Assembly: GCA_027031485.1 (NCBI GenBank)
Contig: JALVQI010000093.1
Span: forward strand, 1 to 39,425
Length of the DNA: 39,425 nucleotides
From: Candidatus Aminicenantota bacterium
GTDB lineage: Bacteria > Acidobacteriota > Aminicenantia > JAMOAD01
Direction of reading: 5' to 3'
Shown here: positions 31,587-39,158 of the stretch, in pieces
Numbering within the stretch: position 1 is the stretch's first letter
Layout of the letters: the number at the start of each line of letters is the position of its first letter
Translations under genes and position numbers: made by a program
Notes under the pieces: model-generated
What the model saw: the letters and a program-made list of their open reading frames with translations, nothing else
Databases searched by the model: none
Told to the model about the DNA's origin: nothing

Positions 31587-31838
31587 ATGAGTTTAAATGA
31601 TAAAATAATAAGCATAGGTTTTAATAATTATATTATGACGGAGAAAATATCAGCCATTACATCAACAAACACAACGCCTATTAAAAAAGCGATAAAACTT
31701 GCAAGAGAAGAAAAAAGATTAATAGATGCCTCTATGGGGAAAAAGGTGAAAACAGCTATCTTTCTTGATTCGGGATTCATTGTTTTATCCGCCCTTGCAC
31801 CTCAGACCCTTTACCAGAGACTTGCGGGAGAGGAATGA
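31587..31838 (+). CDS. remA: RemA/DUF370 family DNA-binding protein
   Basis: An 83-residue member of the RemA family. The sequence follows the family closely: ISIGFNNYIMTEKISAITS, PIKKAIKLAREEKRLIDAS, KTAIFLDSGFIVLSALAPQT. In Bacillus subtilis RemA activates matrix and osmoprotection genes by binding DNA as a ring-shaped oligomer. Its role elsewhere is little known. It is the first gene of its cluster, with AGGAGGAG upstream, and overlaps gmk by 4 nt, the neighbourhood seen in Firmicutes. Confidence 0.9.
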   Translation: MSLNDKIISIGFNNYIMTEKISAITSTNTTPIKKAIKLAREEKRLIDASMGKKVKTAIFLDSGFIVLSALAPQTLYQRLAGEE

Positions 31839-32431
31839 AAAAAAATATTATATTCACATTGACAGGACCATCTGGTGCTGGAAAGTCCACTCTGATAAAA
31901 GGAATAAAGCAAAAGTTTGATGTTAATTTTTCAATCTCCCATACGACAAGAGCTCCGAGAGAGGGAGAGAAAGAGGGAGTGGACTATTTTTTCATCAGCG
32001 ATGAAACATTTGATAAAATGCTCAAAGAAGGGGATTTTCTTGAATGGACGGAAGTTTATGGAAATAGATATGGTACATCAAAGAGGGAGATAGAAAAACT
32101 TCTGAAAAAAGGAAAGGATATTGTATTGGACCTTGACCTCAAAGGAGCTTTGAGAGTAAAGGATTTTTTCAAAGATGCAATTGTGATTTTCATAGGAACA
32201 GAGAATCTAAAAGAATTAAAAAACAGGTTGAAAAAGAGAGGGGAGAGAGATTTTGAATTGAGATTATCATCCGCAAAGGAGGCTGTTGAAAAACTTGAGA
32301 ATTTTGATTATTTGATCATTAACAAAAAAATCGAAGAATCCTTAATGAAACTTGAATCAATTTTTATTGCAGAGCATTTGAAAATAAGAAACCTTTACCT
32401 TAATAAATACAAAGAGGATTTTTTAAAATGA
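31835..32431 (+). CDS. gmk: Guanylate kinase
   Basis: A 198-residue kinase that phosphorylates GMP to GDP. The P-loop is GPSGAGKST (10-18), followed by the GMP-binding segment SHTTRAPREGEKEGVDYFF and LEWTEVYGNRYGTSK. The lid region and a C-terminal basic helix are present. It overlaps remA and coaBC by 4 nt each. The omega-subunit gene rpoZ, which usually stands between gmk and coaBC in this neighbourhood, is absent. Confidence 0.95.
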   Translation: MKKNIIFTLTGPSGAGKSTLIKGIKQKFDVNFSISHTTRAPREGEKEGVDYFFISDETFDKMLKEGDFLEWTEVYGNRYGTSKREIEKLLKKGKDIVLDLDLKGALRVKDFFKDAIVIFIGTENLKELKNRLKKRGERDFELRLSSAKEAVEKLENFDYLIINKKIEESLMKLESIFIAEHLKIRNLYLNKYKEDFLK

Positions 32432-33630
32432 AAAAAGTTCTTTTGGGAGTTAGTGCATCCATATCAGCATACAAAGCTGTGGAAATAGTAAGACTTCTTA
32501 AAAAAAGAGGCTATAAAGTAAAGGTATTAATGACTGAGGATGCAACAAAATTCGTATCTCCGCTGACTTTTGAAGTGGTCTCCGAAGAGGCTGTAATTGT
32601 TGATCAGTTTAAAGATGCGGATAATAAGAAGGTGGAACATATAAGGCTTGCAAGGGAATATGACCTTTTGCTTATTGCACCGGCTTCCCTTGATTTGATA
32701 GGAAAGCTCTCCTGCGGGATTGCGGATTCTTTTTTAGCCCTTATTTTTTATGCTTTTGAGAAAAAAGTGCTTATATCTCCCGCAATGAACAGCTCAATGT
32801 ACAATCATCCTGTAAATCAAAAAAATATAGAATATTTGAAGAGCATAAGAGTTGATTTCATAGAGCCTGATTCAGGTTCACTTGCCTGCGGAGAGGAGGG
32901 GATAGGGAGACTGCCTTCTCCCGAATACATTGTGGAAAGAGTTGAAGCTGAGCTTACAGATAAAATCTTGAAAGATAAGAAAATTCTTATTACAGGTGGT
33001 CCTACAAGAGAGAAATTTGATGATTTCAGATTTTTATCAAATCCCTCCTCGGGAAAAACCGGTCTGTTTTTGGCGGAAAAAGCAAGAAATTTCGGAGCAA
33101 AAGTTACTCTGATATCAGGGAAAACAGCTTTGAAAAGACCGTGGGGGGTTGAGTATGTTGAAATTGAAAGTGCCCGGGATATGGAAAGAGAGGTAAAAAA
33201 AAGGATAAAAGATATTGATATCCTTATTATGAGCGCTGCTGTCGCTGATTTCAGGCCAGAAATTTATAAAAAAGGGAAGATAAAAAAGGAAAAAATCAAA
33301 GATACATATGATTTAAAACTTGTGAAAAATCCGGATATTTTAAAGGAAGTTTCAAAAGCAAAAAAGGAAGGGCAGATTTTCGTCGGTTTTTCAGCCCAAG
33401 AGGACCTTAATATGGATGAAGCAAAGAAAAAGCTCAAAGAGAAAAAGCTTGATCTTATAGTATTAAATAAAATTTCCGATAAAAGAGGCGGTTTTGAATC
33501 CGATGAAAATAAGGTTATCATAATATCAAAGGATGAAGATATTGAAAAAACAAGGTTTTTAAGCAAGGAAGAGATAGCGGAAAAGATTTTAAAATTCATA
33601 TATGAAAAATGGGTAAAAAAAGAAAGGTAG
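32428..33630 (+). CDS. coaBC: Bifunctional phosphopantothenoylcysteine decarboxylase / phosphopantothenate-cysteine ligase
   Basis: A 400-residue two-domain enzyme of coenzyme A synthesis. The CoaC flavoprotein half (about 1-175) shows GVSASISAYK, the catalytic histidine in VEHIRLA, PAMNSSMY and the ACGEEGIGRL cysteine. The CoaB half (about 180-400) shows ITGGPTREKFDDFRFLSNPSSGKTG, the SAAVADFRPE motif, the KIKKEK lysine segment and VLNKISDKRGGF. The usual GPV in CoaB appears as GKTAL, a minor variation. The start overlaps gmk by 4 nt, and the end overlaps the glycosylase gene by 22 nt. Confidence 0.95.
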   Translation: MKKVLLGVSASISAYKAVEIVRLLKKRGYKVKVLMTEDATKFVSPLTFEVVSEEAVIVDQFKDADNKKVEHIRLAREYDLLLIAPASLDLIGKLSCGIADSFLALIFYAFEKKVLISPAMNSSMYNHPVNQKNIEYLKSIRVDFIEPDSGSLACGEEGIGRLPSPEYIVERVEAELTDKILKDKKILITGGPTREKFDDFRFLSNPSSGKTGLFLAEKARNFGAKVTLISGKTALKRPWGVEYVEIESARDMEREVKKRIKDIDILIMSAAVADFRPEIYKKGKIKKEKIKDTYDLKLVKNPDILKEVSKAKKEGQIFVGFSAQEDLNMDEAKKKLKEKKLDLIVLNKISDKRGGFESDENKVIIISKDEDIEKTRFLSKEEIAEKILKFIYEKWVKKER

Positions 33631-34337
33631 AGCAACTCTTTTTTCTAAAAGAGATAGGAGTTAACTTTTTGTCTCCCGAGGAAGCGGAGAAAATAAGAAG
33701 GGAACTTCTGATAAAACCAGCAAACAGAGAAAAAGGGGAAGAAACACAGAAAAGAGATAAAATTTCTCCATCCAAAGAAAAATTTTTAAAAGAGATTGAG
33801 GAGGAGGTTGCCTCTTGTAAAAGATGTGAGCTTTATAAAAATAGAAAAAACTATGTTTTCGGAGAAGGAAATATAAATGCTGATATAATGTTTGTGGGTG
33901 AGGCTCCGGGAGAGGAGGAAGATAATCAGGGCAGACCATTTGTAGGTAAGGCGGGGAAAAAACTTACCGAGATGATTGAAGCCATGGGTTATAAAAGAGA
34001 GGATGTTTTCATAGGAAATATCGTAAAATGCAGGCCTCCGGGTAATGCCACACCCACACCGGCTATAAGAAGAACCTGTTTTCCCTATCTTCAAAAACAA
34101 ATTGCAATAATAAGGCCAAAAGTTTTAATAGCTTTGGGAAATGTCGCAGCTCAAACATTACTTGATACAAAGGAGACTATAACAAGGCTAAGGGGGAAAT
34201 TCGGCGAATATCAGGGGATTCCTGTTATGCCGACATTTCATCCTTCATATGTTATTAGAAATTACACGATCCCGGTGAGAAAAGCTGTATGGGAAGATCT
34301 TAAAAAGGTTTTAAATCTGCTTAATGAGAATAGCTGA
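33609..34337 (+). CDS. Family 4 (iron-sulfur) uracil-DNA glycosylase
   Basis: A 242-residue DNA repair enzyme that removes uracil from DNA. The 4Fe-4S cluster cysteines are C70, C73, C141 and C157. Catalytic motifs are GEAPGEEED (97-105) and HPSYVIRN (211-218). The core (about 62-240) is preceded by a charged N-terminal tail of about 60 residues that is not part of the glycosylase fold. The ATG at 33609 lies inside coaBC without a clear ribosome-binding site; a TTG at 33669 has AGGAG 7-8 nt upstream and would shorten the tail by 20 residues, so the start is uncertain. It overlaps priA by 14 nt. Confidence 0.9.
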   Translation: MGKKRKVEQLFFLKEIGVNFLSPEEAEKIRRELLIKPANREKGEETQKRDKISPSKEKFLKEIEEEVASCKRCELYKNRKNYVFGEGNINADIMFVGEAPGEEEDNQGRPFVGKAGKKLTEMIEAMGYKREDVFIGNIVKCRPPGNATPTPAIRRTCFPYLQKQIAIIRPKVLIALGNVAAQTLLDTKETITRLRGKFGEYQGIPVMPTFHPSYVIRNYTIPVRKAVWEDLKKVLNLLNENS

Positions 34338-36114
34338 TGTCCTGATAAATATTCCTGTTTACAAAAGTTATGCTTATATCACTGATGACGAAGATATAGT
34401 TTTAAGAAGAGTGAAGATTCCCTTTGGTAGCAGAAGTGCTCGGGGTTTTGTCTCAAACTTGAGGGATTTTCAAAAAGCTTCATACAAATACAAAAAAATA
34501 TATGAGATTTTGGATAAAAAAAACTTTATCAGTCAGGAGCATTTTAATTTTTTAGTGAAACTTTCGGATAATTTTTTACTTCCCATGGGAAAAGTTTTAT
34601 TTTTATCATTACCTCCGTTTTATGATTTTAAAGAAAAGATTGTTTTTTACAGCGGAGAAGATAAAAAAGGCGATATTTTTTTAAATATAGGTGAGTTTGA
34701 TTTTCCCGGGATTATCTCTGAAGCTGAAAAAGATGTTTCAGAGGGAAAGGATGTCAGATTTGTTTTTTCAGACTATTTCACACAGGAGCAATTTCTTGGA
34801 ACAGTTTCAAAAATTTCGAATTTGTCTTTCTTAAAATTCGGAGATAGCAGAAAATCCGGAAAAGTGTGGGAGAGTTTTTTCAGAGGAGAAGGTAGTGCGG
34901 TTTCGGGGATTTTATATCCTCTTTTTCTTCCGAAGAGAAGAGAAACTGTAATTTATCTTATAGATGAAGGACCCCAGAAATTTTACCTTGATCATCCTTT
35001 CCCAATAGATCTTAGAGAGTTGTCCTTTTTTTCATACAGAGAACAAAACCATTCCCTTAAAATATTTTCTCTCTCCCCTTCACTAAAGACATATGATTTT
35101 GTCCGTAAGGAAATGGGTAAAATCAAGAGCAATGAAATATCAAAAAAAAGAATACTCATTGCCCCCCTCAAAAGAAACACTCTTACAAAGGAGCTTAAGG
35201 CAAAGGTTAAAGAGAAAGAAAAGAAAGTTCTTTTTTTAATAAACAGGAATGCAAAGAAAAGATTTTTATACTGTCCCAGATGCAGAACAGTTTCAACCTG
35301 TCCTGACGATGGTGCGACTCTTCTTTTCAATGAGGAAACTGAGAAGGTGTTTTGTCCTGTCTGCAAAAAAGAGTTTGATTATCCCTACAAATGTCAGATA
35401 TGCGGAACAAAGGTTGCAATCATCGGAGGTGTGGGAATATCTTCACTGGAAAGAAATTTAAGAAAAAGTTTTGAAAACTCATCATTTGCAAAATATTCAA
35501 GAAAAGAGGTATCAAAAAGCAAAAAGGAAAAGGCTCTGATAGATTCTTTTTTAAAGGGTGAAAAGGATTTTCTCCTGGGTACTGAAATATCCATTAAACC
35601 CTTTACGATAAAAAATTTAAATCTGATTATTTATTTTTTCCCCGAACTTGATTTGGGAACGGAAAATCCCGAACTCACGGAAAAGATTTTCTATAATCTT
35701 TCGGCTCTTTCATCAATGTTATCTTCAGAGGGAGAGCTCATAATAAAAAGTAAGATTCCGGATTTTTATGCGATAGAGGAATTTCTGAAAGGAGATTACA
35801 AAAGTTTTATTGAAAAAGAGAGTAAGATAAGAAAAGATTTAAAATATTTTCCATTTTCAAATTTCATAATTATAGGAGTTTCCTCAAAAACAAAGGATTC
35901 TTCTCTGAAAAGGATAAAAAAATACAGAAAAATCCTGAAGGGAAATATTGAGGAAATTTACGGTCCCTTTTATAAAAAGAGACCGGACGGAGAAAATGTA
36001 TTTTATCTTGTTTTAAAGGGAAAAGAACTTGACCCTTTAAAAAATATCATTGTTGAAAAAATTTTCCCTCTTTCCGACACTTCCACATCATTCTTTATTA
36101 ACCGTTTTATTTGA
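34324..36114 (+). CDS. priA: PriA-like primosomal protein lacking ATPase motifs
   Basis: A 596-residue PriA homologue, shorter than the usual 730 or so. The 3'-DNA-end-binding domain (about 1-100: VLINIPVYKSYAYI, VKIPFGSRSARGFV) and zinc region are recognisable. There is no Walker A: the region that should hold GxTGSGKT (about 122-140) is missing it. The DEEH box is D214-E-G-P217, and the arginine-rich VAGRAGR motif is replaced by LSALSSMLSS (458-468). Seven of eight zinc cysteines remain (317, 320, 326, 344, 347, 357, 360). So it can probably bind forked DNA and load the replisome but not unwind DNA with ATP. Actinobacterial PriA proteins are known to lack these motifs too. Its 3' end overlaps metH by 27 nt. 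Confidence 0.82.
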   Translation: MRIADVLINIPVYKSYAYITDDEDIVLRRVKIPFGSRSARGFVSNLRDFQKASYKYKKIYEILDKKNFISQEHFNFLVKLSDNFLLPMGKVLFLSLPPFYDFKEKIVFYSGEDKKGDIFLNIGEFDFPGIISEAEKDVSEGKDVRFVFSDYFTQEQFLGTVSKISNLSFLKFGDSRKSGKVWESFFRGEGSAVSGILYPLFLPKRRETVIYLIDEGPQKFYLDHPFPIDLRELSFFSYREQNHSLKIFSLSPSLKTYDFVRKEMGKIKSNEISKKRILIAPLKRNTLTKELKAKVKEKEKKVLFLINRNAKKRFLYCPRCRTVSTCPDDGATLLFNEETEKVFCPVCKKEFDYPYKCQICGTKVAIIGGVGISSLERNLRKSFENSSFAKYSRKEVSKSKKEKALIDSFLKGEKDFLLGTEISIKPFTIKNLNLIIYFFPELDLGTENPELTEKIFYNLSALSSMLSSEGELIIKSKIPDFYAIEEFLKGDYKSFIEKESKIRKDLKYFPFSNFIIIGVSSKTKDSSLKRIKKYRKILKGNIEEIYGPFYKKRPDGENVFYLVLKGKELDPLKNIIVEKIFPLSDTSTSFFINRFI

Positions 36115-38535
36115 TTTTTCCAGAATTTTTTCCACTTTTTTAACAGTATCCATTGCATCCTTGCAGTATGCGTCCGCTCCTATTTCCCTTGAAAAAGAGG
36201 GAGAAACCGCAGCTCCGCCGATAAAGACCTTTGTATCAGGGATAATTTTGTTTTTTAAGGAAATAACAACTCCCATCTCTTCCATAGTGGTTGTCATCAA
36301 AGCTGAAAGGCCTATGAATTCCGCTTTTTCTTTTAGTGCTGTTTCCACAATCTCTTCCGAGGGAACATTTTTCCCTAAATCTATTACATCATATCCATAA
36401 TTTCTTAGAACAAGAGAAACAATATTTTTTCCGATATCATGAAGGTCACCTTTGACCGTTGCAATTACAATCTTTGCTTTCTTTTTTGCCTTTCCCTCCA
36501 CTTTTAAATTCTTTTCAATTATTTCCGAAGCACTCTCCATTGCTTCGGCTGATAAAATCAGCTGGGGCAAAAAGTATATCTTTTGTTCATAAAGCTCCCC
36601 AACTTTTTTTAAGGCAGGGGAGAGGATTTTCTCTAAAACATCAAGGGGAGCCCATCCATCTTCAATTAGCTCTTCAGTTAATTTTTTTGTCTCTTCCTTT
36701 TCTCCTTCTATTACAGCCTGAAAAAGCCTATCCTCCTTTGTCTTCCCGCGTTTTTCATCATTTTCATCTTTATCCTCAACATTAATTTCCATACCTCTGT
36801 AATAGTTGACATAGTTTACAAGCCCCTTGTCCCTTCCTGTGATGGCATCGGACGCTCTTATCGTATTTAATATTTCTGTTTCAAGAGGATTAAGAATAGC
36901 TGAATCAAGACCACTGAATATTGCATTTGCAAGAAAAGTTCTGTTCAAAACAGCCCTTGCCGGAAGGCCGAAGGAAAAATTGGAAAGTCCGATAACAGTG
37001 TTAAGCTCCCTCTCTTTTATTTTTTTAATGGCTTTTATTGTCTCCTCTCCGTTTTTCTGAGATGTTGAAATTGTAAGAACAATTGGATCAACCAAAATAT
37101 CCTCCTCTGTAAGACCATAATCAAGGGCTTTTTTATATAAAAACTCTATTATTTTCACTCTGTCTTCCGCCTTTTCGGGTATTCCGTTTTCATCTAATGC
37201 CAAAAGAATAGCTCCGGCTCCGTATTTTTTTGTCAGAGGAAAAAGATTTTCAAAGGAGGCAGGATCTCCGGTAATGGAATTTATAAATGACTTACCGCTA
37301 TAAACTTTTAAAGCCGCTTCTATTGACTCTTTTTTATTGTTATCTATGAGAAGAGGTAATTTTGTCACCTGTTGAATTTGTTTTATCGCATCCGCATAAA
37401 ACAGTGGTTTTTTATCGCCTGTTCTTCCGAAATTAATATCAAGGGCATGGGCTCCCGCCTCTTCCTGCTTTCTTGCCAGCCTTCTTACAATTTCAAGCTT
37501 TCCCTCCTTCAATTCTTTTAAAAGTTTCTTTTTCCCGAAAGGATTTATATTTTCCCCTATTATCTTAAAGGGAAGATCGGAACCCGCTTCAAAAATGGAG
37601 TTTCTGCTTGTGATTATTGTTATATTTTCTTTCCTTTTCTTAATTTTCTCAGGCTTTTTCCCCTTATATTTATCGGCTATCCTTTTAATGTGCTCAGGAG
37701 TTGTGCCGCAACAGCCCCCCACTATGTTAACTCCGTTTTCATAAAAAAAATCCACATATTTTATGTACTCATCAGGGCTCATAGGAAATACCACTTTCCC
37801 ATCAATTTTTTCGGGAATACCTGCATTTGCATAAACGATCATAGGCTTTTTCCAGTATTTTCTAATTTCTCTCACAAAATTAGCAAACTCCTTCGGATGT
37901 CCTCCGCAGTTTATACCGAAAATATCCGCTTCCGTTGAATTGAAAGTTGCGGCTGCAATTGAGGGTGAGGAGCCTGTCAAGGTCAATCCCCCTTCAAGAG
38001 GATAGGAGACGGAAACCGCAACAGGTATTGAGCTTGCCTCCTTTGCCGCTCTTAATGCAATCTTTGCCTCCGCTATGTCTATTTGTGTTTCTATTAAGAT
38101 AAGATCAACTCCTCCATCACTCAGAGCTTTTATCTGTTCATAATATGTTTTAAAAACAGTATCCTCATCCAATTCTCCGAGAGGGGAGATTAATTTCCCT
38201 AAGGGTCCCACGGAGCCAGCGATAAAAATATCCCGTCCCGATTCTCTCATAGCCTCCCTTGCGATTTCAACAGCTGCCATATTAAGCTCTCTTATCCTGT
38301 CTCCCAGACCGTATTCATCAAGCTTAAGCCTGTTTCCTCCGAATGTATTTGTCTCTATTATATCAGCGCCAGCTTCTATGTAACTTTTATGTATTTCCTT
38401 GATTAAATCTCTCTTTTCAATATTTAATAATTCTGGACATCCGAAATCAGCCGAGCCCAATCTTTTCATAATTTCTGTTCCCATTGCTCCGTCAAGGATC
38501 AAAACTCTTTTTTTTATTTCATCCAAAATCTTCAT
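36088..38535 (-). CDS. metH: Cobalamin-dependent methionine synthase, three-domain form
   Basis: An 815-residue MetH transferring a methyl group from methyltetrahydrofolate via cobalamin to homocysteine. The homocysteine domain (about 1-290) keeps DGAMGTE and zinc ligands C210, C275 and C276 (GINCGG, GGCCGTTPEH). The pterin domain (about 320-590) shows IIGENINPFGKK and HALDINFGRTG. The cap and B12 domain (about 620-815) has the cobalt-ligand histidine H699 in GDLHDIGKN. The C-terminal activation domain is missing from the polypeptide and is encoded by the gene just upstream, which overlaps by 4 nt. It converges with priA. Confidence 0.94.
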   Translation of the reverse strand: MKILDEIKKRVLILDGAMGTEIMKRLGSADFGCPELLNIEKRDLIKEIHKSYIEAGADIIETNTFGGNRLKLDEYGLGDRIRELNMAAVEIAREAMRESGRDIFIAGSVGPLGKLISPLGELDEDTVFKTYYEQIKALSDGGVDLILIETQIDIAEAKIALRAAKEASSIPVAVSVSYPLEGGLTLTGSSPSIAAATFNSTEADIFGINCGGHPKEFANFVREIRKYWKKPMIVYANAGIPEKIDGKVVFPMSPDEYIKYVDFFYENGVNIVGGCCGTTPEHIKRIADKYKGKKPEKIKKRKENITIITSRNSIFEAGSDLPFKIIGENINPFGKKKLLKELKEGKLEIVRRLARKQEEAGAHALDINFGRTGDKKPLFYADAIKQIQQVTKLPLLIDNNKKESIEAALKVYSGKSFINSITGDPASFENLFPLTKKYGAGAILLALDENGIPEKAEDRVKIIEFLYKKALDYGLTEEDILVDPIVLTISTSQKNGEETIKAIKKIKERELNTVIGLSNFSFGLPARAVLNRTFLANAIFSGLDSAILNPLETEILNTIRASDAITGRDKGLVNYVNYYRGMEINVEDKDENDEKRGKTKEDRLFQAVIEGEKEETKKLTEELIEDGWAPLDVLEKILSPALKKVGELYEQKIYFLPQLILSAEAMESASEIIEKNLKVEGKAKKKAKIVIATVKGDLHDIGKNIVSLVLRNYGYDVIDLGKNVPSEEIVETALKEKAEFIGLSALMTTTMEEMGVVISLKNKIIPDTKVFIGGAAVSPSFSREIGADAYCKDAMDTVKKVEKILEKSNKTVNKE

Positions 38536-39158
38536 TTTTCCACTCCTATTATTGCGGTTATTGTTTTTTGAGGCAAGAGAAGGTTTGTGTCCGTTATACT
38601 TACCCCTATTTTTTCAAGGGAAAGCTCTTTGAAAAGTTCTTTCTGAAAGGAGATATGAAGATCACCGTATCCCGGGCTAAATCTTTTTGTCAGAGAATAC
38701 TTATTCTGCCTCGCTTCAATATCAAAAAAATGATTTATTGAGTTTGCGGCACCTTCCACAGCTTCACTTCCCACTGCATCATAGATCAAAGCTTCATTAA
38801 ATACTCTCCTTTCTTTCAATTCCTTTATCTTATTATCAATAAACCAGCCGATTGTAACCCCGAAAAATATGGCTGCGAAAGAATCTGACAATAGTTTTAC
38901 AATATCTTTGCTTGTGATTTTGAGATCAGTGTTTTTAAAGAAAATTGTATCCTCTTCCACCTTTGAAACTTTCCTTACAATATAAACGGCAGCCGCCAAG
39001 GCATTCTCCTGCGTCTCCTTTAAAATAAAATCTATTTTCCCGGCAAAAGAGGGAGAAACTTTTGTTTTATCCCTTTTATAACCTAAAAGGGAAAGAACAT
39101 CCTTTTTGTTAATCATATAAGATATTCTTTCCTTAACTATAATTCTGTCAAAAATCAT
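38532..39158 (-). CDS. Stand-alone methionine synthase activation-domain protein
   Basis: A 208-residue protein whose C-terminal two thirds match the MetH reactivation domain, which binds S-adenosylmethionine to re-methylate oxidised cobalamin. Diagnostic segments are DAVGSEAVEGAANSI, TKRFSPGYGDLHISFQ and the final TNLLLPQKTITAIIGV. The N-terminal third (about 1-70) is a connecting region seen in such stand-alone forms (KKDVLSLLGYK). The gene directly precedes metH with a 4-nt overlap, giving two-subunit methionine synthase. The start at 39158 lacks a ribosome-binding site; ATG 39116 is an alternative with AAGGA at long spacing. Confidence 0.85.
   Translation of the reverse strand: MIFDRIIVKERISYMINKKDVLSLLGYKRDKTKVSPSFAGKIDFILKETQENALAAAVYIVRKVSKVEEDTIFFKNTDLKITSKDIVKLLSDSFAAIFFGVTIGWFIDNKIKELKERRVFNEALIYDAVGSEAVEGAANSINHFFDIEARQNKYSLTKRFSPGYGDLHISFQKELFKELSLEKIGVSITDTNLLLPQKTITAIIGVEK

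Follow-up and report, generated by a model that had tools for sequence, protein, structure and literature searches.

Most bacteria have conserved the helicase activity of PriA, even though E. coli can do without it. Actinobacterial PriA lacks the helicase motifs. It has been described as "smaller and very divergent" (PMC1193525). The PriA of Deinococcus radiodurans has arginine in place of the Walker A lysine, and its motifs I and II are poor matches; it shows neither ATPase nor helicase activity, yet forks and DnaB are still bound (PMC4504706). In E. coli, the parts of PriA that read the fork are the 3' DNA-binding domain (3'BD), the winged helix, which contacts the parental duplex, lobe 1 and the C-terminal domain; the zinc region docks PriB, and PriA-PriB restart in vivo does not require the ATPase (PMC10175261). 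The ATPase-dead mutants K230A and K230R still assemble primosomes and load DnaB (PMC10175261, PMC4504706; K230A was used for DnaB loading in vitro, PMC10175261) and are an artificial counterpart of the protein described here, which, unlike these mutants, differs from a complete helicase by far more than one substitution.

We analyzed a stretch of 39,425 nucleotides (the window) from a genome of 2.97 Mb that is 97.8% complete and whose nearest named relative is the Candidatus Aminicenantes MAG JALXDT01 (94% protein identity). Aminicenantia lie within the Acidobacteriota, and both the kinship labels and the RpoB tree agree with this placement. Families are numbered f1 (that of the window) onwards.

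A PriA homologue without helicase motifs

The open reading frame of the window gene starts with ATG and contains no internal stop codons (Table 1). It matches the PriA 3'BD model of Pfam (PF17764, PriA_3primeBD; 54.5 bits, cut-off 22.7), the NCBIfam priA model TIGR00595 (E=3e-38; 132 bits, well below the family cut-off of 230) and the PriA chains in PDB (best E=2e-18), and a profile of family f1 was aligned to canonical PriA by hhalign with E=2.9e-34 over 575 columns. The original prediction from the sequence, a PriA homologue with an intact reading frame, is borne out. That prediction had also raised the possibility of a second, complete PriA in the same genome; a model search of the genome found none, the other TIGR00595 matches being, on inspection, Mfd, RecG, UvrB and a DEAD-box protein. 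The genome thus has one copy of PriA, and the PriA-specific 3'BD also occurs once.

Table 1. Features of the priA locus (positions refer to the window; aa, residues of the priA product)
Feature	Position	Strand	Basis
rpoZ, first gene of the conserved operon	31587..31838	+	homologue at the same place in f17, f29, f1 and one f5 genome; name from sequence and context
gmk, conserved operon	31835..32431	+	synteny
coaBC, conserved operon	32428..33630	+	synteny
udg, uracil-DNA glycosylase-type gene	33609..34337	+	synteny; name from sequence
priA homologue, helicase motifs lost, 596 aa	34324..36114	+	Pfam, NCBIfam, PDB, profile alignment
3'BD, aa 1-97	34324..34614	+	PF17764, E=1.1e-14; alignment
25-residue linker in place of winged-helix domain and P-loop strand, aa 98-122	34615..34689	+	alignment
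Helicase domain 1 remnant, aa 123-300	34690..35223	+	alignments
DEGP replacing motif II DEEH, aa 214-217	34963..34974	+	sequence and alignment
FSLSPS replacing motif III GSATPA, aa 248-253	35065..35082	+	alignment
Cysteine-rich region (CxxC, CxxD, CxxC, CxxC), aa 317-360	35272..35403	+	alignment, family comparison
Helicase domain 2 remnant, aa 361-500	35404..35823	+	alignments
LSALSSMLSS replacing motif VI QVAGRAGR, aa 459-468	35698..35727	+	alignment
PriA C-terminal domain, aa 501-596	35824..36111	+	Pfam PriA_C, E=0.11 (below cut-off); profile alignment
MetH-like protein, 815 aa	36088..38535	-	
208-aa gene beside the MetH-like gene	38532..39158	-	

The Walker A motif GxTGSGKT of an active SF2 helicase is missing: GxxGxGK[ST] was sought throughout the 596 residues and is absent, as had been predicted. 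A misalignment that masks the Walker A lysine was considered and rejected, because the profile-profile alignment with canonical PriA leaves the Walker A and winged-helix region in a gap, so that no alignment recovers the lysine. Motif II reads D214-E215-G216-P217, and this replacement and that of motif VI, both read from the sequence beforehand, are found in the alignment as well; in motif V, the GT is retained. With these motifs lost, the protein would be expected neither to bind or hydrolyze ATP nor to unwind DNA. A PriA pseudohelicase, as defined for D. radiodurans, is a priA orthologue that is maintained although its catalytic motifs have degraded, and whose product neither hydrolyzes ATP nor unwinds DNA but retains binding to forks and DnaB. 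By its sequence, which agrees with the first part of this definition, the window gene appears to be the sole, orthologous PriA of its genome turned into such a protein.

With canonical PriA (E. coli, other Acidobacteriota, and family f4 of Aminicenantia) the window protein shares the 3'BD, the zinc region, the order of the remaining domains and the single copy, whereas Walker A, DEEH, SATP, GRAGR and the winged helix are lacking and the length is reduced (596 vs. 732 aa in E. coli). In the 3'BD, the RVKIPFG sequence is kept, as is K57, which aligns to K61 of E. coli. The winged-helix domain (residues 106-200 in E. coli, 95 residues) is represented by only 20 residues. It is retained in the motif-less PriAs of most other families, and the PriA of f7 is full-length with a dead motor. 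The expectation that the N-terminal DNA-binding part had been kept is right for the 3'BD but not for the winged-helix domain, which is deleted together with the P-loop strand. The seven zinc cysteines that had been predicted (C317, C320, C326, C344, C347, C357 and C360) lie in the same place as in canonical PriA, between the two helicase lobes, and the eighth is an aspartate (D329) in 4 of the 4 family members. The C-terminal block, likewise expected to be kept, is recovered by profile alignment with a weak Pfam match. Structure prediction from a two-row alignment gave a pLDDT of 33.

Actinobacteria had been proposed as the precedent for such a protein, and PriA is indeed shortened and divergent in both (the actinobacterial protein being that of the NCBIfam PRK14873 models). 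The PRK14873 models, however, match the window protein poorly (best E=9e-6), far more weakly than the canonical priA model, and the PRK05580/TIGR00595 models range from E=3e-42 to 6e-19; by this measure of model scores, the window protein is not of the actinobacterial lineage. The pseudohelicase of Deinococcus-Thermus is the closer precedent (PMC4504706), an orthologous PriA having been retained there too despite the loss of the motor (loss of activity was shown biochemically in that case, and is predicted from the sequence in ours). The window protein has gone further, with the entire P-loop missing along with motif VI and, in its family, the winged helix, and the organism belongs to a different phylum.

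Conserved operon and constraint on priA

The window gene occupies the ancestral position rpoZ-gmk-coaBC-udg-priA, with the 3' end of udg overlapping the start of priA by 14 bases. The order gmk-coaBC-udg-priA was found in eight families of Aminicenantia (f1, f2, f3, f5, f6, f7, f8 and f10; in f6, priA comes after udg, with a score under the threshold used in the synteny search) and in f17 and f29 of other Acidobacteriota, the latter with a canonical PriA (rpoZ was detected upstream in only some of these families). The neighborhood of coaBC and priA, called normal in the original prediction, is thus widely conserved. Downstream, on the opposite strand, the MetH-like protein is short for a full methionine synthase, and the 208-aa gene beside it may encode a separate activation domain.

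Calculation of dN/dS among close relatives had been proposed as a check on the gene. Between the window genome and G001, in which PriA is 94% identical, dN/dS of priA is 0.150, compared with 0.08-0.12 for those genes of the operon and its flanks whose dN could be measured. Three more genomes of the family encode the same intact, motif-less PriA at 94, 53 and 45% identity, and chance or sequencing error is thereby excluded. In the one at 53% (G002), the neighboring genes are 67-81% identical. Within the former motif V/VI block (residues 437-459), 17 of the 23 residues are invariant among four family members (counted by eye), with the family-specific pattern FPELDL..NPE..EKIFYNL, which suggests a new constraint on the dead helicase lobe. 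Another member of the family, G003, the genome of which is 85% complete, yielded no PriA, probably because of an assembly gap.

That priA changes faster than its neighbors and that its domains were lost progressively would fit a decaying pseudogene, the reading frame of which is still unbroken in a lineage where restart has become independent of PriA. The low dN/dS and the conserved operon position argue against such decay, as do the reading frames that remain intact in distant orthologues (synonymous sites are near saturation in the more distant pairs, including that with G002), the retained zinc ligands, and the presence of motif-less PriA across 11 families. We therefore reject the pseudogene, which we consider highly improbable, and the original view of a helicase-dead gene under constraint is supported, with no second PriA in the genome and the same motif-less state across the class.

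Distribution in Aminicenantia and other Acidobacteriota

The PriA-specific 3'BD was detected in 112 of 119 genomes of Aminicenantia, in single copy in all but two (in one of these, the two matches are pieces at contig ends). Among the 66 PriA proteins of the class that we read, Walker A GK[ST] and GRAGR were missing at the aligned places in all 59 from 11 families (f1-f3 and f5-f12), and both were present in the 7 canonical proteins from f4. The loss of the motor is thus not confined to the window gene but covers nearly the whole class. Outside Aminicenantia, Walker A was present in 34 of the 35 acidobacterial PriAs read, the sole exception being the motif-less PriA of G123 (f17), a 100%-complete genome in which priA stands in the ancestral operon and whose class-mates (f29) have canonical PriA. 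Some members of f3 and of f9 (in f9, G087 and G097) lack Walker A and GRAGR yet still show DEEH; these are intermediate states of decay. In the alignment, many families of Aminicenantia share a similar short G...R..Y pattern where the P-loop would be.

We found no paper that treats PriA in Aminicenantes. A helicase-dead PriA is an already known kind of protein and therefore not a new system; new, as far as we found, are the near class-wide spread, the case in a second acidobacterial class, and the reduced form without winged helix and P-loop.

One loss or several losses

The original prediction of a repeated or ancient loss is borne out: the loss is old in Aminicenantia, is seen in a single genome of a second acidobacterial class, and has a precedent in Deinococcus-Thermus (PMC4504706). 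Either the motor was lost early and a canonical PriA was regained in f4, or there were several losses. The latter history, in which f4 kept the ancestral canonical PriA, agrees with the RpoB tree (1196 columns), in which f4 groups with f1 and f5 (support 96), and the RpoB data reject a position of f4 as sister to the rest of the class (p-AU 0.018). In the PriA trees, in contrast, f4 lies outside the PriAs of the remaining Aminicenantia, and a grouping of f1+f4+f5 is rejected with the full alignment (p-AU 0.029), though no longer when the motif columns and the N-terminal part are removed (p-AU 0.146); the shared G...R..Y replacement of the P-loop also fits one old loss. There are long branches in both trees, which disagree with each other, each only mildly, and these branches weaken the points against several losses. 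In f4 (G014, G011), neither priA nor udg lies in the ancestral operon; the relocation of priA was considered as proof of horizontal gain and rejected as such, because udg has left the operon too and no foreign origin is needed. The motif-less PriA of f17, in one class with the canonical PriA of f29 and with the ancestral operon kept, is possibly an independent loss. Several losses in the class are, in our estimate, a serious option that falls somewhat short of even odds; they bear on history, and the function of the window gene is independent of which history is correct.

Replication partners and proposed function

The window genome encodes DnaB and a DnaC/DnaI-like AAA+ protein of 245 aa with zinc-type cysteines at its N-terminus (L199:3667-4404, G000:C45). 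The latter matches the DnaC/DnaI models with E=2e-25 and 6e-24 (both below the model cut-offs) and the DnaC structure 3ecc with E=1.5e-36, has a 38% identical homologue in f29, and is a candidate DnaB loader. Its gene adjoins those of a sigma factor and a MoxR-like ATPase. The same search in three further genomes (G004, G043 and G012) returned only DnaA-sized matches. The loader DciA (PF05258) was undetected in 23 genomes of Aminicenantia, save one sub-threshold match with stops in G007, and was present in 5 of 5 other Acidobacteriota tested, including G123 (f17). A link between the state of PriA and DciA was not seen, as f4 has canonical PriA without detectable DciA and f17 has a dead PriA with DciA.

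We propose, with a probability of roughly 0.8, that the window PriA serves as a scaffold which recognizes forks without ATP and loads DnaB, its role in restart, its binding to forks and its contact with DnaB being suggested by sequence and by analogy. The retained parts, taken together with the precedents of D. radiodurans and E. coli, would fit such a role. The protein would recognize abandoned forks and D-loops, with the 3'BD gripping the 3' end of the leading strand, while the fork is held by the zinc region, the remodelled helicase lobes and the C-terminal domain. It would then recruit the replicative helicase DnaB, probably with the DnaC/DnaI-like loader, whereupon replication restarts; where the lagging strand is already duplex, another helicase, e.g., RecG, might unwind it, or this step might be omitted. 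Because the winged helix is gone, fork recognition must differ from that of canonical PriA, and contacts with the parental duplex must be weaker or come about in another way. Of the "helicase-dead loader" originally predicted, the first half is upheld by the lost motifs and the constraint on the gene, and the second is what we infer here.

Alternatively, the protein might have been recruited to another role, e.g., as a DNA-bound regulator or a recombination factor, and no longer take part in replication restart; the loss of both winged helix and motor, the weakly recognizable C-terminal domain and the new family-specific conservation in the former motif V/VI block could be read in this way. 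We regard such a change of role as unlikely, given that this is the only PriA of the genome, that it retains the 3'BD, which binds the fork end, and the zinc region (the docking site of PriB in E. coli), that its gene remains at the ancestral locus, and that the known pseudohelicase PriA retains binding to forks and DnaB (PMC4504706).

If the scaffold proposal is extended to the class, all Aminicenantia except one sampled family would restart replication via an ATP-independent PriA scaffold without a detectable DciA loader. In such a reduced route of helicase loading, PriA would be a pure structure-reading adaptor, which in the window family has been stripped of winged helix and P-loop and might even take part in loading at the origin; we offer this extension as speculation, with the odds well against it. 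The shedding of the motor in nearly a whole class, beside the canonical PriA of f4 and of the sister classes, provides a natural comparison, which could show which genes, repair habits and fork structures accompany the loss of the motor. The graded series, from a full-length protein with a dead motor to one that has lost the winged helix too, shows which parts of PriA are retained by selection.
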